Shown here one piece after another: positions 4,931-10,599 of a stretch of DNA of 14,075 bases. Each line of letters starts with the position of its first letter. Within the stretch, counting starts at the first letter, position 1. The notes below the pieces were generated by a model. It saw only the letters and a list, made by a program, of their open reading frames with translations, searched no databases and had not been told where the DNA came from. The DNA comes from a bacterium (GTDB lineage Bacteria > Thermosulfidibacterota > Thermosulfidibacteria > Thermosulfidibacterales > Thermosulfidibacteraceae): NCBI GenBank assembly GCA_027022065.1, contig JALVZS010000026.1, positions 1-14,075 of the forward strand. The letters run 5' to 3'. The translations under genes were made by a program, and so were the position numbers.

Positions 4931-6538
4931 CTAGCCTAGGATTTCCTTTAGATCCTCCTCTGGTGTCTTTATTAACTGGAGGTTGTACTTCTCCTGGACG
5001 AACTTGAGGATGTTCTCAGTGAAGAACTGGGGCGCTGTCGGTCCTATCTTGATGTTTTTGATGCCTAGATACAGTAGCGACAGTAGTATAGCAACAGCCT
5101 TCTGCTCGTACCAGGAGAGGATGAGCGAGAGGGGCAGGCTGTTAACATCGGTGTTGAACACCTCTGCAAGCTTCAGAGCAATTTGAACCGCGGAGTAGGA
5201 GTCGTTGCACTGTCCTATGTCCAAAAGTCTTGGGATGCCGTCAATGTCTCCCAGCTTTTTGGTGAAGAAGCGGAACTTTCCACAGGCAAGCGTCAGTATA
5301 ATGGTGTCTTTGGGTGCCTTTTCCACAAACTCTGTGTAGTAGTTTCTTCCAGGCCTTGCTCCGTCGCATCCTCCAACCAAGAAGAAGTGCCTGATCTTTC
5401 CTGCCTTTACCAGCTCAACGATCTTGTCTGCCACGGACAGCACTGCATTTCTGGCAAATCCGGTGTAGCAGTAGTCCTTTTCCTCATCTTTGTCAAAGCC
5501 AGAAAGTTTGAGGGCGTGCTCAATTACTTGGGAAAAGTCATGGTCATTTATGTGCTTAACGCCTGGAAAGCCCACGGGTCCCATGGTGTACACTCTGTCC
5601 TTATAGCTGTCCTTTGGAGGCATGAGACAGTTTGTGGTCATCACTATGGGACCGGGGAACTTTTCAAACTCCTCCCTTTGGTTCTGCCAGGCTGTTCCGT
5701 AGTGGCCTACCAAATGTGGGAATCTCTTAAGTCCTGGATATCCGTGGGCGGGTAGCATCTCTCCGTGGGTGTAAATGTATATGCCCTTGCCCTCTGTTTG
5801 CTCCAAAAGCTTTTCAAGGGCCAAAAGGTCATGGCCTGAGACAAGTATAGCCTTTCCCTTTTTGGTTCCAATACTCACCCTTGTGGGCTCGGGGTGACCG
5901 AACCTCTCCACGTGTCCGTTATCCAGAAGTTCCATGGCTAGGATGTTGTACCTTCCCGTTTCAAGGGCAAGATTAAGCCATTGCTCCATGTTTCCGTTTT
6001 CGTAAATCTTTATCAGCACATCGTGTACGAACTTGAATAGTCCGTCGTCCTTCTTGCCCAGCTCCCATGCGTGATACGCGTAGGACGCTACACCCTTAAC
6101 ACCATATAGGGTGGTGAGCTTTAGGCCCATAACATCTTTGTCCTCTGCCTTGTCAAAGGAAAGCTCCACCTCTTCCGCCTGCTTCGAAAGTCCGTCGGTG
6201 CTGGAGGCGGGCTGAAACTTTGCCGCTTCTGTTTCTAGCTCCACATTTGCCTCTTTTGCCAGCTTGTCCCTCAACTGAACGGCCTTTCTTATGTACTCCT
6301 CAATCCTTGCGGGATCAAAGTTCACATTTGTTAGGGTAGAGAATATAGCCTCACAGCTGAATGCATCGGCCTCTTCCGTATCAACTCCCTTTTCTTTGGC
6401 CTTTAGGGCAGCCTCTCCCAGACCGGCCAGTACGTAGATCAAGAGATCCTGTAAGAGATCCGTTATGGGATCCTTACCGCATACACCAATCTTTGTGCAT
6501 CCTCCCTTTGCCGACTGCTCACACTGATTGCAAAACAT
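4931..6538 (-). CDS. hcp: Hybrid-cluster protein (hydroxylamine reductase / NO detoxification)
   Basis: Hcp is a cytoplasmic iron-sulfur enzyme that reduces hydroxylamine in vitro and acts as an NO reductase and nitrosative-stress protein in studied bacteria. The 535-residue length is typical. The N-terminal cubane ligands C3, C6, C14 and C20 (C-x2-C-x7-C-x5-C) give the short spacing found in anaerobes rather than the longer enterobacterial one. All hybrid-cluster ligands are present in order: H236 (SGHDL), E260 (THGEML), C304 (TTNCLMPP), C391 (GGCDGARPGRN), C419 (LACGKF), C444 (IGQCNDSY), E478 and K480 (SWYEQK). GGAGG with a 7-base spacer supports the ATG. It is preceded by the hcpR-type regulator and a CRP/FNR box, and is monocistronic up to its terminator. 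No adjacent hcr reductase gene is present; the electron donor is unknown. Confidence 0.97.
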   Translation of the reverse strand: MFCNQCEQSAKGGCTKIGVCGKDPITDLLQDLLIYVLAGLGEAALKAKEKGVDTEEADAFSCEAIFSTLTNVNFDPARIEEYIRKAVQLRDKLAKEANVELETEAAKFQPASSTDGLSKQAEEVELSFDKAEDKDVMGLKLTTLYGVKGVASYAYHAWELGKKDDGLFKFVHDVLIKIYENGNMEQWLNLALETGRYNILAMELLDNGHVERFGHPEPTRVSIGTKKGKAILVSGHDLLALEKLLEQTEGKGIYIYTHGEMLPAHGYPGLKRFPHLVGHYGTAWQNQREEFEKFPGPIVMTTNCLMPPKDSYKDRVYTMGPVGFPGVKHINDHDFSQVIEHALKLSGFDKDEEKDYCYTGFARNAVLSVADKIVELVKAGKIRHFFLVGGCDGARPGRNYYTEFVEKAPKDTIILTLACGKFRFFTKKLGDIDGIPRLLDIGQCNDSYSAVQIALKLAEVFNTDVNSLPLSLILSWYEQKAVAILLSLLYLGIKNIKIGPTAPQFFTENILKFVQEKYNLQLIKTPEEDLKEILG

Positions 6539-6574: not shown

Positions 6575-6580
6575 ATGATA
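6575..6580 (-). promoter_or_regulatory. Predicted hcp -10 element
   Basis: TATCAT on the minus strand (complement of 6575-6580) is one mismatch from TATAAT. There is no recognisable -35 at 17 bases (AAGGAT). The CRP/FNR-type box centred at 6608.5 would sit at about -41.5 of a start near 6567, so activator-dependent transcription is expected. Confidence 0.5.
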
Positions 6581-6601: not shown

Positions 6602-6615
6602 TTGACTTATGTCAA
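6602..6615 (-). promoter_or_regulatory. CRP/FNR-type operator (likely HcpR box) upstream of hcp
   Basis: A perfect inverted repeat TTGAC-TTAT-GTCAA has the half-site spacing of FNR/HcpR sites. It overlaps the stop codon of the adjacent CRP/FNR-family gene and lies 64 bases upstream of the hcp start. The position relative to the predicted -10 fits a class II activator. That the neighbouring regulator binds it is inference from its recognition helix and from the known HcpR-hcp pairing in other anaerobes. Confidence 0.75.
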
Positions 6616-7289
6616 TCCATACCAAATTCCGCTATTTCTTTTAATTTATCAAAGGAGAGCACCCTAACCATGCTCCCTCTAACATCAATGGCTCCTGCCC
6701 TTGAAAGCTTCTTAAAGGCCCTTGAGAGGGTTTCTGGCGCGGTGCCCAAAAGCAGTGCCAGCTGGCTTTTGCTAACGGGAAGCAGGAAGATCTCTCTGCC
6801 CTGGGAAGCCTCAAGGAGATACTGTGCGAGTCTTGATGGAACCTCTTTTAAAGACAGCATCTCCACCAAATTAGCCAGATACTTGAGCCTCTTTGCCATG
6901 CTGTATATCAGGGATACCGCTACATCCGGCTCCTTTCTTATAAGATCCACCAGCGCCCTTCTTTCTATGAACACCAGCAGACTTTCTTCCTCCGCCTCTG
7001 CGTAAACGGGATAGCTGCTTCCCTCAATAACGGATACTTCGGCAAATACCTCTCCCTTCTCCACAAAAGTTACTGTTTGCTCCTTTCCAGATGAGGAGAG
7101 CTTGTAGAGTCTTACCCTGCCCTCAACAACCGCCCATATGCCTTTGGCACTCTCATCCTGGGAGAATAAGAGCTTGCCTTTGGGCGCCTTAACAAGCCTT
7201 GATATTTCAGACAGCTTCTTTAAAGCTTCTGATGGTACATGGGAGAATATCTCAATGCTTCTAAGGATAGCCGTCGTTGTGGTTGCTAT
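6612..7289 (-). CDS. hcpR: CRP/FNR-family regulator, HcpR type, probable ATA start
   Basis: This is a transcription factor that probably activates hcp under nitrosative stress. From the ATA at 7289 it has 225 residues, the normal family length. The cyclic-nucleotide-like sensor domain spans roughly residues 14-130 (IFSHVPSEALKKLSEI, then GIWAVVEGRVRLYKLSSSGKE), followed by the dimerisation helix and a C-terminal HTH (SKSQLALLLGTAPETLSRAF). The recognition-helix residues E..SR match the FNR type, which reads TTGA half-sites. The protein has no cysteine, so it is not an Fe-S FNR; haem or another cofactor is possible, as known for HcpR. No ATG, GTG or TTG occurs in frame between the upstream stop (7353-7355) and GTG 7064, which would delete half the sensor domain. 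A strong Shine-Dalgarno (AGGAGGT, complement of 7294-7300) is followed by ATA. The start is inferred. Confidence 0.85.
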   Translation of the reverse strand: MATTTTAILRSIEIFSHVPSEALKKLSEISRLVKAPKGKLLFSQDESAKGIWAVVEGRVRLYKLSSSGKEQTVTFVEKGEVFAEVSVIEGSSYPVYAEAEEESLLVFIERRALVDLIRKEPDVAVSLIYSMAKRLKYLANLVEMLSLKEVPSRLAQYLLEASQGREIFLLPVSKSQLALLLGTAPETLSRAFKKLSRAGAIDVRGSMVRVLSFDKLKEIAEFGMD

Positions 7290-7318
7290 CTCTACCTCCT
7301 TTTTCGTTTTTGCAATAA

Positions 7319-7348
7319 ATTTTATCTTGGGTTTCTGCCGGTCGTCAA
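7319..7348 (-). promoter_or_regulatory. Promoter for the hcpR-type gene
   Basis: On the minus strand TTGACG (complement of 7343-7348) and TAAAAT (complement of 7319-7324) are separated by 18 bases, each one mismatch from consensus. Transcription would start near 7312, about 12 bases before the Shine-Dalgarno. This supports translation beginning around 7289 rather than at 7064. Confidence 0.55.
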
Positions 7349-7438: not shown

Positions 7439-7801
7439 ATGCGGGAAATTTCTTCGCCAGCGACTTTTAAAGACAGTTACATAGCCGAAGTTAAAGAGGA
7501 GCTTGCTAGGGAAGGGGTTCAGGTGCTTAAAGTGAAGAAAAATACAACAGCTAAAAGTGTGAGGAAGCTCAAAGCTCCAAGGCATATAAAAGCTGTTTTA
7601 CGAGAGGCTATCTTAGAGCTTTTGAAAGAGGGGAGAGTACCTACTTACAAAGAGATTAAGCAAAAAGCTCTTGAAATATACCAGGCGAAAAAGCAGCATC
7701 AAGAGTCTATTGTAGAAAGATACTACGGCCTGTGGAAAATAGAGGACAAAAATTTGGTAAGCGAGATTGCCTTGAATGAAGAAATTTACTATGAAAGATA
7801 A
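7439..7801 (+). CDS. Putative antitoxin partner of the PIN-domain toxin
   Basis: The 120-residue product is highly charged and mostly helical, with no membrane segment and no fold I can name. Residues ~38-85 (KSVRKLKAPRHIKAVLREA, then LLKEGRVPTYKEIKQKAL) read as a basic helical bundle, and the acidic C-terminus (EIALNEEIYYER) could wrap the toxin. It has no evident AbrB or ribbon-helix-helix N-terminus, which standard VapB antitoxins have. It starts after a purine-rich AAGGGGGG (7427-7434) and overlaps the downstream PIN gene, the classic antitoxin-first order. The cassette is visibly richer in A/T codons (AAA, TTA, TTT) than its neighbours, which fits horizontal acquisition. The antitoxin role is inferred from context alone. 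Confidence 0.55.
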   Translation: MREISSPATFKDSYIAEVKEELAREGVQVLKVKKNTTAKSVRKLKAPRHIKAVLREAILELLKEGRVPTYKEIKQKALEIYQAKKQHQESIVERYYGLWKIEDKNLVSEIALNEEIYYER

Positions 7802-8291
7802 AATCAAATGTTTATATGGAAGGAAGATTCTGGTGGACAGCAACGCTTTTATATATTTTCTTACTGGTCAGAGCCTTCTGGTTAAAGAGTTTTTTCAAGC
7901 TTCAGTAGAAGGAAGACTAAAACTGCTTACTACTGTGAGAATCCTTGATGAGGTCATCTTTAAAACATGTATTTTACTAGCCAAGATGCGTTATGGGTTT
8001 TATAAAAAGACATTAAATAAGCTTAAGAAGAATCCTCATTTGATATCAGAGTTATCCGAAGATTGCCGGAAGATAATTGACATGTGTCAAGCCTTTAATT
8101 TTGTGGTATTTGACCTTAGCTTCAGAGATTTGGAAAAGCTACCTAATATAATGCAAAATTATGGATTGGTAGGTAATGATGCTTTGACAGTGGGTATTAT
8201 GCAGAAGATGAATTTAAAATATCTACTTTCCGCAGATAAGGATTTTGATGCCGTTCCATGGATCAAAAGGATAGATCCGCTTGACTTTTGA
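7776..8291 (+). CDS. PIN-domain ribonuclease, VapC-like toxin
   Basis: The 171-residue product carries the PIN-domain acidic residues in order: D21 (ILVDSNAFIYFL), E59 (ILDEVIF), D135 (LVGNDAL), then D154 and D158 (LSADKDFD). PIN toxins cleave tRNA or rRNA with Mg2+/Mn2+ and are held inactive by a co-encoded antitoxin. It is somewhat longer than typical VapC (~130), with an insert of basic helices around residues 63-105 (FYKKTLNKLKKNPH). The start at ATG 7776 overlaps the upstream gene by 26 bases. ATG 7791 (11-base overlap) is equally possible, as neither has a strong Shine-Dalgarno. There is no terminator before the nicotinamidase gene 38 bases later, so read-through is likely. Confidence 0.85.
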   Translation: MKKFTMKDKIKCLYGRKILVDSNAFIYFLTGQSLLVKEFFQASVEGRLKLLTTVRILDEVIFKTCILLAKMRYGFYKKTLNKLKKNPHLISELSEDCRKIIDMCQAFNFVVFDLSFRDLEKLPNIMQNYGLVGNDALTVGIMQKMNLKYLLSADKDFDAVPWIKRIDPLDF

Positions 8292-8329: not shown

Positions 8330-8902
8330 ATGGCAAGGGTTGAGATTGTCTTGGGGCGGATGGATGCGCTGATTGTGGTTGATATGCAGAAGGACTTTAT
8401 TGAGGGTTCTCTTCCTGTGCCCGGGGCGAGGGATATTATTCCAAATATCAACAGGTATATTAAGGTGTTTGCCGAAAAGGGCTGTACTGTGGTCTTTACC
8501 AGGGACTGGCATCCTGAAAACCACGCTTCATTTAAGGAAAACGGGGGATTGTGGCCCAGGCACTGTGTTGCAGGAACTGAGGGAGCGATGATCCACAAGG
8601 ATATAACTTTGCCCAAAGAAGGTTTCTTTGTGATAAACAAGGGAACGAGTCCCGACTTTGACGCCTACTCTGGATTTCAGGATACTAAACTTGATGCTCT
8701 GCTCAGGGAAAGGGGGATTAAAAGAATCTTTCTCTGTGGCGTTGCCACTGAGTACTGTGTGAAGGCCACTGCCGAGGGAGGGTTGAACCTTGGCTATCAG
8801 GTGTTTCTGTTACTTGATGCGATAAAGGGCGTGGGCGAGGAGGCTTCCAGAAAAGCCCTTGAGGATCTCTACCTGAGGGGTGCGGTGGGTATAGAGCTGT
8901 GA
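8330..8902 (+). CDS. pncA: Nicotinamidase (isochorismatase-like family)
   Basis: This enzyme hydrolyses nicotinamide to nicotinate and ammonia for NAD salvage in the cytoplasm. All catalytic residues are visible: the triad D18 (VVDMQKDF), K104 (INKGTSPDFDAYSGF) and C143 (GVATEYCVKATA), and metal ligands D59, H61 and H65 in RDWHPENH plus H78 in RHCVAGTEGA. Residues 1-10 (MARVEIVLGR) precede the usual family start. ATG 8360 would give MDALIVVDMQKDF but has GGGG only 3 bases away, while ATG 8330 has GGGGG 9 bases upstream, so the start is unsettled. The stop overlaps the next gene's GTG by 4 bases. It begins a run of overlapping genes. Confidence 0.92.
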   Translation: MARVEIVLGRMDALIVVDMQKDFIEGSLPVPGARDIIPNINRYIKVFAEKGCTVVFTRDWHPENHASFKENGGLWPRHCVAGTEGAMIHKDITLPKEGFFVINKGTSPDFDAYSGFQDTKLDALLRERGIKRIFLCGVATEYCVKATAEGGLNLGYQVFLLLDAIKGVGEEASRKALEDLYLRGAVGIEL

Positions 8903-10599
8903 GTTCCGTTGACAAACTGGCCCAGAGGTTAAAAAAGCTTCACCTTAGAGGATACAAGGCACTTAAGGATATAGAGGGAAGCTATCGGCTACCAGATGGC
9001 ACAATCCTTGACATAATTCATGTTCAAGGGGATCCCTTTGCCTCTCCCAGCAAGCTTAGGCTCATAATTTCCATGGATGTGGCGGGGTTTCCCAAAGAGC
9101 TTTTCAGTAATCCTCCAAGGAAGATAGGGCTTCAGGACTACATTCTCAGGGTGTTTGCGAAAAGGCTTTCTGCCTTTTCAAGGCCAAGGGGGACGGGGAA
9201 GAGCGGGCTTTACTTTGTTGATGCAGGTGCTCAAAAGGTGCTTCTTCGCTCTGACTGCATAGTTAGTGAGGATAAGGTGGAGATAAGGTTTACGGCGGGA
9301 CTTCCCGCAAGGGGAAGGAGTATTCTGGCCGATGTGGCTGTGGATATGCTGTGCCGTGAGGTTCCCAAGGCAGCTTCTCAGATAAAGTGGAGCCTTTTCA
9401 ACCAAAAGGAGGCTGTTGAGTTTGTAAACCTCGTGGAGGATGCAGAATACATTCGCTCAAGGCTCAAGGAGAAGGGTGTAGTAGCCTTTATCAGGGATGG
9501 AAGCGTTCTTCCGAGAAGAAGTGGGGTGGATGACAGGCCGTTAGAGGGGGCGGTGGTGTTTAAAAGCCCAGATTCGCTAAAGGTGAGTTTTGATACCCTT
9601 CATCACGGCGTCGTTGAGGGGATGGGAATACCGGAAGGGGTTACCTTGATTGTGGGTGGGGGTTTTCATGGGAAAAGCACCCTTCTTTCCGCCATTGAGA
9701 TGGGGGTGTACAACCACATACCGGGGGATGGAAGGGAATGGGTGGTTTCAAATCCAAAAAGCGTGAAGGTGAGAAGTGAGGACGGAAGGTATGTTGAGGG
9801 GGTGGATATTTCAAGCTTTATAAATCACCTGCCCAACAATGCAGATACGAGCTTTTTCTGCACCGAAAATGCCTCTGGCTCAACCTCTGTGGCGGCTGCC
9901 ATATCTGAGGCCTTGGAAATGGGGGCTGAGGTGTTGCTCATGGACGAGGATACCACTGCCACCAACTTCCTCATAAGGGACTCAAGGATGCAGAGGCTGA
10001 TCGCTAAAGAGAAGGAACCTATAACGCCCTTCATAGATAGGGTAAGGGAGCTTTACGAGAGGTTCGGGGTTTCAACCATCATGGTTGCAGGTGGAGCTGG
10101 AGACTATCTGGATGTTGCAGATACGGTAATAGCCATGGAGGACTATGTGCCCAGTGATGTAACGAATGTGGCAAAAAAAATAGTAGAGGAGATGCCTTCG
10201 GACAGGGTAAAGGAGGTAGAAGAGCCCTTTAGTATGCCTCCAAAAAGGAGGGTGCTTAAGGAAACCTTTCATGTGAGGAAAAGCCACAAGGTAAAATCCA
10301 AGGGCCTAAAGGAGATAATTTTTGGGAACGAGGTTATAGATGTCTCCTTCGTTGAGCAGTTGGTGGATGACAGCCAGCTTCGCTATATAGCGGAGCTTTT
10401 GAGGAGACTATCTCAGAAAAAGGACGGTTTTCTGTTGAGGGATGAGCTTGAGAGGCTGGATAGCCTTGTTGAAAGCAGGGGCTTTGATGCCGTATCTGGC
10501 CATATTACTTTTGGGCTTGCCTATGCCAGGACTTTTGAGGTAGCATCCTCAATAAACAGAATGAGAACACTTAAGGTGAGGCAGGAGGAAAGAGGTTGA
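8899..10599 (+). CDS. Predicted ATPase of the ABC class, role unknown
   Basis: The 566-residue soluble protein matches the 'predicted ATPase of the ABC class' family in length and organisation. A long N-terminal domain (LRLIISMDVAGFPKELF near residues 55-71) precedes the nucleotide-binding core. Walker A is GGGFHGKST at residues 253-261, a signature-like ENASGSTSVAAAI lies before Walker B, and Walker B is VLLMDEDTTATNFL with D349-E350. The usual LSGGQ is replaced by SGSTS. No transmembrane domain is present, so it is not a transporter by itself. The cellular role of the family is unknown to me. It starts with GTG in a GTGA overlap with pncA and ends in a TTGA overlap with the aminotransferase, implying coupled translation. 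Confidence 0.88.
   Translation: MSSVDKLAQRLKKLHLRGYKALKDIEGSYRLPDGTILDIIHVQGDPFASPSKLRLIISMDVAGFPKELFSNPPRKIGLQDYILRVFAKRLSAFSRPRGTGKSGLYFVDAGAQKVLLRSDCIVSEDKVEIRFTAGLPARGRSILADVAVDMLCREVPKAASQIKWSLFNQKEAVEFVNLVEDAEYIRSRLKEKGVVAFIRDGSVLPRRSGVDDRPLEGAVVFKSPDSLKVSFDTLHHGVVEGMGIPEGVTLIVGGGFHGKSTLLSAIEMGVYNHIPGDGREWVVSNPKSVKVRSEDGRYVEGVDISSFINHLPNNADTSFFCTENASGSTSVAAAISEALEMGAEVLLMDEDTTATNFLIRDSRMQRLIAKEKEPITPFIDRVRELYERFGVSTIMVAGGAGDYLDVADTVIAMEDYVPSDVTNVAKKIVEEMPSDRVKEVEEPFSMPPKRRVLKETFHVRKSHKVKSKGLKEIIFGNEVIDVSFVEQLVDDSQLRYIAELLRRLSQKKDGFLLRDELERLDSLVESRGFDAVSGHITFGLAYARTFEVASSINRMRTLKVRQEERG

Follow-up and report, generated by a model that had tools for sequence, protein, structure and literature searches.

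The question raised by this locus was whether translation of a regulator gene of the CRP/FNR type can begin at an ATA codon. The window, a stretch of 14,075 nucleotides from a genome of the Thermosulfidibacteraceae, carries the gene on its minus strand directly upstream of hcp. We consider it probable that translation of this CRP/FNR gene starts at ATA 7289-7287 and that it encodes a regulator of the HcpR type acting on the neighbouring hcp. The call of the ATA codon is based on one metagenome-assembled genome of 1.57 Mb in 251 contigs, estimated to be 88% complete.

Start region of the regulator gene

As the initial annotation had stated, the minus-strand frame was open from 7352 to 6612. It comprised 246 codons without a stop according to the sequence and the ORF list, and the ATA was codon 22. 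ATG, GTG and TTG were absent from this frame from the upstream stop down to GTG 7064-7062, which lies 75 codons 3' of the ATA; a canonical ORF would thus be restricted to 7064-6612. The sequence ATA-GCA is one base away from a standard ATG-GCA start. The coordinates of the features are given in Table 1.

Table 1. Features of the regulator gene and of hcp, with positions numbered along the window.
Feature	Position	Strand	Remarks
hcp, hybrid cluster protein (hydroxylamine reductase family)	4931..6538	-	NCBIfam PRK05290, 1.9e-237; ATG start, leader AAAGGAGGTAGAGAG
-10-like TATCAT of hcp	6575..6580	-	Read from sequence; function inferred
HcpR/FNR-type box TTGACATAAGTCAA	6602..6615	-	Overlaps regulator stop codon; 77 bases upstream of hcp ATG
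hcpR-like CRP/FNR regulator gene, read from ATA	6612..7289	-	225 aa plus stop; Pfam domains and AlphaFold model
First canonical in-frame start, GTG	7062..7064	-	Inside sensor beta-barrel; not credible as start
Putative ATA start codon	7287..7289	-	Sequence; position agrees with homologue N-termini
Shine-Dalgarno AGGAGGT	7294..7300	-	GGAGG ends 5 bases before ATA
Promoter-like site TTGACG-18-TAAAAT	7319..7348	-	Consensus match only, chance level

The perfect Shine-Dalgarno sequence described in front of the ATA was found in the order GGAGG-TAGAG-ATA. Its spacing of 5 is normal for this genome: in the 313 genes where GGAGG precedes a canonical start, the distance between the two peaked at 6-7 and was 5 in 47 genes. 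The duplex with the anti-Shine-Dalgarno sequence was predicted at -13.9 kcal/mol, equal to that of hcp, and the leader of the regulator gene matched the hcp leader almost letter for letter. The regulator leader was not found in a scan of viral contigs.

A good promoter had also been proposed just upstream of the gene. The TTGACG-18-TAAAAT pair is present as described, and pairs as good are expected by chance 1.4 times per 1.2 kb, so that it lends the start little weight. The promoter predicted from this pair would put the transcript start near 7312 and would leave the upstream near-cognate codons untranscribed. The -35 of the regulator itself is overlapped by an FNR-like half site with two mismatches (7348-7335), which was rejected as being at chance level; for this reason no autoregulation of the regulator is claimed. 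The other two minus-strand frames were closed by TAG 7294-7292, inside the Shine-Dalgarno sequence, and by TAG 7263-7261; both stops had been noted earlier, the second of them at about 50 bases further on instead of the actual distance of about 30. It was correctly recognized that no frameshift could rescue an ATG, and the upstream ATGs in those frames never reach the gene.

The regulator protein and its relation to hcp

Both a cNMP-binding-like beta-barrel and a Crp-type HTH of the CRP/FNR superfamily were found in the regulator (Pfam cNMP_binding PF00027, 3e-20; HTH_Crp_2 PF13545, 1.7e-16), and its fold matches in the PDB were CRP/FNR proteins, with a best E value of 8.9e-20. In the protein read from ATA, the Pfam sensor domain starts after about 33 residues and extends well past GTG 7064. 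Modelled by AlphaFold from residue 1, the 225-residue protein had a mean pLDDT of 90, with a helix at 2-10 directly after the ATA residue and the next at 20-28. GTG 7064 corresponds to residue 76, and in the model a start there would cost the protein its N-terminal helices together with strands one to five of the sensor barrel. The claim that recognizable sensor-domain sequence lies upstream of the first canonical start is thus upheld by the frame, Pfam and the fold model. In most homologues the methionine sits 13-15 residues before the end of a conserved (I/L/F)F motif, and the ATA lies at 15; one distant homologue begins MATTSRGLKTIPIF, and its counterpart in the regulator is (ATA)-ATTTTAILRSIEIF. 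Because of the sensor domain, the fold model and the N-termini of the homologues, a complete protein would require initiation at or very near 7289.

Apart from the regulator, no cNMP_binding protein turned up in this genome, which is 88% complete. A search of 98 related genomes and the GTDB contig collection for a close orthologue sharing this start gave none above 48% identity. In relatives at the level of the order, which are 41-47% identical and lie in a different gene context, the start codons appear to be canonical, often weak GTG or TTG. In order-level relatives (L002, L004, L005 and L006) the regulator homologue lies away from the hcp contig, directly behind a response-regulator-like gene or overlapping its end; that gene ends in ...HPGVGYRFEPGE.

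The consensus TTGACnnnnGTCAA is known for HcpR from delta-proteobacteria and cyanobacteria (PMC1274295), and the box at 6615-6602 matched it exactly. Two exact copies were present in the 1.57 Mb genome, which is about the chance expectation; it is therefore the position of the box, and not its mere presence, that counts. Judged from the -10-like TATCAT, the box would be centred near -41 relative to the hcp transcript start, a class II position. Four relatives (G003, G005, G006 and G007) have FNR-like boxes 71-78 bases ahead of hcp. Of the eight other genomes of the phylum, these same four and no others carry hcp together with a strong match to the regulator; the two genes were either both present or both absent. 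The hcp neighbour, the exact box, its conserved position and this co-occurrence indicate that the regulator gene is most likely hcpR. As in delta-proteobacteria and cyanobacteria, a CRP/FNR protein is encoded beside hcp and TTGACnnnnGTCAA precedes hcp; no odd start was noted there, whereas the present gene has ATA (PMC1274295).

The translated regulator has no cysteine and only one histidine, and its sensor barrel lacks methionine. An FNR-type 4Fe-4S oxygen sensor was considered and rejected, since the cysteines that bind the cluster are absent. The heme ligand of Porphyromonas HcpR is Met68 (PMC12750200); without a barrel methionine, the present regulator has no evident counterpart of it. By homology, the signal of the regulator is probably nitric oxide or nitrite stress.

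ATA in infC, genome survey and alternative explanations

Non-canonical starts of infC are the classical case of autoregulation by IF3. In this genome infC reads ACGGAGGTGTAGCC-ATA-GCG-GCG-AAA, with no ATG, GTG or TTG in the first 41 codons of the open frame. Of seven genomes of the phylum, six (the present one and G001, G004, G005, G006 and G007) had ATA behind GGAGGT in infC, and G003 had canonical codons at that place. The infC gene of this genome was found at L038 and L084 (G000:C249), on the minus strand, and those of relatives at L059-L062 and L064. In S. aureus the infC start was mapped as AUA by ribosome profiling (PMC13009471). Given the ATA of infC here and in most of the phylum genomes, this organism very probably does initiate at ATA codons preceded by a strong Shine-Dalgarno sequence. 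The regulator gene resembles infC genes with AUU, AUC or AUA starts in its non-canonical codon and strong Shine-Dalgarno sequence, and infC of this very genome also has ATA; infC differs in encoding the proofreading factor itself, hence its direct autoregulation.

We surveyed 898 kb (57%) of the genome, in which 785 complete coding frames were found by codon composition. Frames were selected by a coding signal preceding any canonical start, and by a strong Shine-Dalgarno sequence with a codon at 4-9 bases and no canonical start among the 12 codons that follow. Weaker rows with a canonical start 14-16 codons on, such as L043, L052 and L077, were left out of the count. Three convincing genes with a strong Shine-Dalgarno sequence, no usable canonical start and a coding composition from that point onward remained among the 785 frames: infC (ATA), the regulator (ATA) and a methyltransferase (CTG). 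The last is THUMP/RlmKL-like (L120:4810-5967, G000:C76); CTG is the only start near its Shine-Dalgarno sequence AAGGAGGTTGTGGT, and the first canonical codon follows 37 codons later. A fourth case of a late start, an AhpC/TSA peroxiredoxin (L097:560-1225, G000:C53), has TGA at the active-site cysteine (DFTFV-TGA-PTEL) and is a probable candidate for a selenocysteine peroxiredoxin. GGAGG was common inside genes, and a scan for GGAGG followed by any codon in all frames was uninformative. Lost starts are no general feature of this assembly, which reduces, though not to zero, the probability of a base error at the regulator.

Such an error, in the consensus or the assembly, would mean that the true codon is ATG and the gene an ordinary hcpR. 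In its favour, ATG-GCA behind this Shine-Dalgarno sequence would make a textbook start, the assembly is fragmented into 251 contigs, and homologues of the regulator appear to use canonical starts. However, a consensus error falling exactly on a start codon is improbable, and the survey of 785 frames gave no background of lost starts, the other cases with a strong Shine-Dalgarno sequence being infC, whose ATA is common in the phylum, and one CTG gene. We therefore favour a real ATA start on account of infC in the same genome and the few lost starts in the survey, and regard a base error as unlikely. The ATA could also be a real and recent mutation of ATG in the strain or population, merely weakening or silencing the gene, with no regulatory role. 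That the codon is not common to relatives and was seen in a single genome agrees with such a mutation, but the frame of 225 codons, the box and the promoter region of hcp are intact with no sign of decay, and the strong Shine-Dalgarno sequence would still permit some initiation; this explanation appears less likely still than a base error.

Initiation at a codon other than ATA 7289 is the least plausible of the alternatives and seems very improbable. The frame is open upstream to 7352, and the start could be placed at a near-cognate ATT or ATA within 7352-7290, reached by a frameshift from the out-of-frame TTG 7315-7313, or moved to GTG 7064. But the upstream near-cognate codons have no Shine-Dalgarno sequence and the predicted transcript start is near 7312; the frame of the TTG ends at TAG 7294, inside the Shine-Dalgarno sequence, with no good slippery site; and for GTG 7064 the closest AAGGAG is about 15 bases off and the product would include half of the sensor domain. 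The initial annotation had read the locus as an infC-like non-AUG start of a low-level regulator, naming a base error as the simple alternative. That reading gained support from infC, which has ATA in the same genome and in most of the phylum, and the regulator can now be named HcpR from its neighbour and the box.

Possible role of the proposed ATA start; flanking genes

IF3 rejects non-canonical starts. Bacterial starts other than AUG, GUG and UUG with experimental support are few, namely infC, sigR and ccpN, and also pcnB. A non-canonical start in a regulator is already known from sigR and ccpN, and the present gene would add another case. The sigR gene of Streptomyces starts at GTC and is repressed by IF3, and canonical codons there led to uncontrolled expression of the regulon (PMC5472188). 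It is likewise a transcription regulator of a stress response with a non-canonical start in a genome whose infC is also non-canonical; the two differ in the codon (GTC vs ATA) and the protein (sigma factor vs CRP/FNR), and sigR was proved experimentally, whereas the present gene is known from its sequence. For ccpN of S. aureus an AUA start was found by ribosome profiling, and AUA reporters reached about 10-30% of AUG (PMC13009471). The ccpN gene of S. aureus and Bacillus is also a transcription regulator with an AUA start and an extended Shine-Dalgarno sequence, and infC of S. aureus has AUA as well; it differs in being conserved between genera, ribosome-profiled and of another protein family.

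With genes whose non-canonical start is IF3-sensitive, the regulator gene shares two sequence features, namely the lack of a usable canonical start and a near-cognate codon at the correct distance from the Shine-Dalgarno sequence. The strong Shine-Dalgarno sequence may place the ribosome at the AUA and offset the poor codon, with fMet inserted. Initiation would be weaker than at AUG, perhaps to the degree of the Staphylococcus precedent (about 10-30%), and proofreading of the AUA by IF3 may hold the regulator scarce and couple it to the level of IF3. On nitrosative stress, the few HcpR molecules would activate hcp; the benefit may be that HcpR stays scarce and hcp is switched on only under such stress. 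Each added regulator of this kind backs the idea that poor start codons keep regulators scarce under IF3. It is a tentative and rather doubtful extension that ATA is an established regulatory start codon in this phylum, with infC and hcpR forming a small IF3-controlled set; readiness for nitrosative stress would then be coupled to the condition of the translation initiation machinery. Gene finders limited to ATG, GTG and TTG would call the present gene at GTG 7064 and lose half of the sensor domain.

On the plus strand, two overlapping genes at 7439-8291 are divergent from hcpR, and the second encodes a PIN-domain protein (6.3e-08); the two resemble a pair of the toxin-antitoxin type. The PIN-domain gene contains the second TTGACnnnnGTCAA site (8077-8090), which was taken as a chance occurrence. 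Further on, 8899-10599 (plus strand) encodes a predicted ABC-class ATPase with PF09818, PF20446 and MRB1590_C domains, an ordinary and little studied protein.
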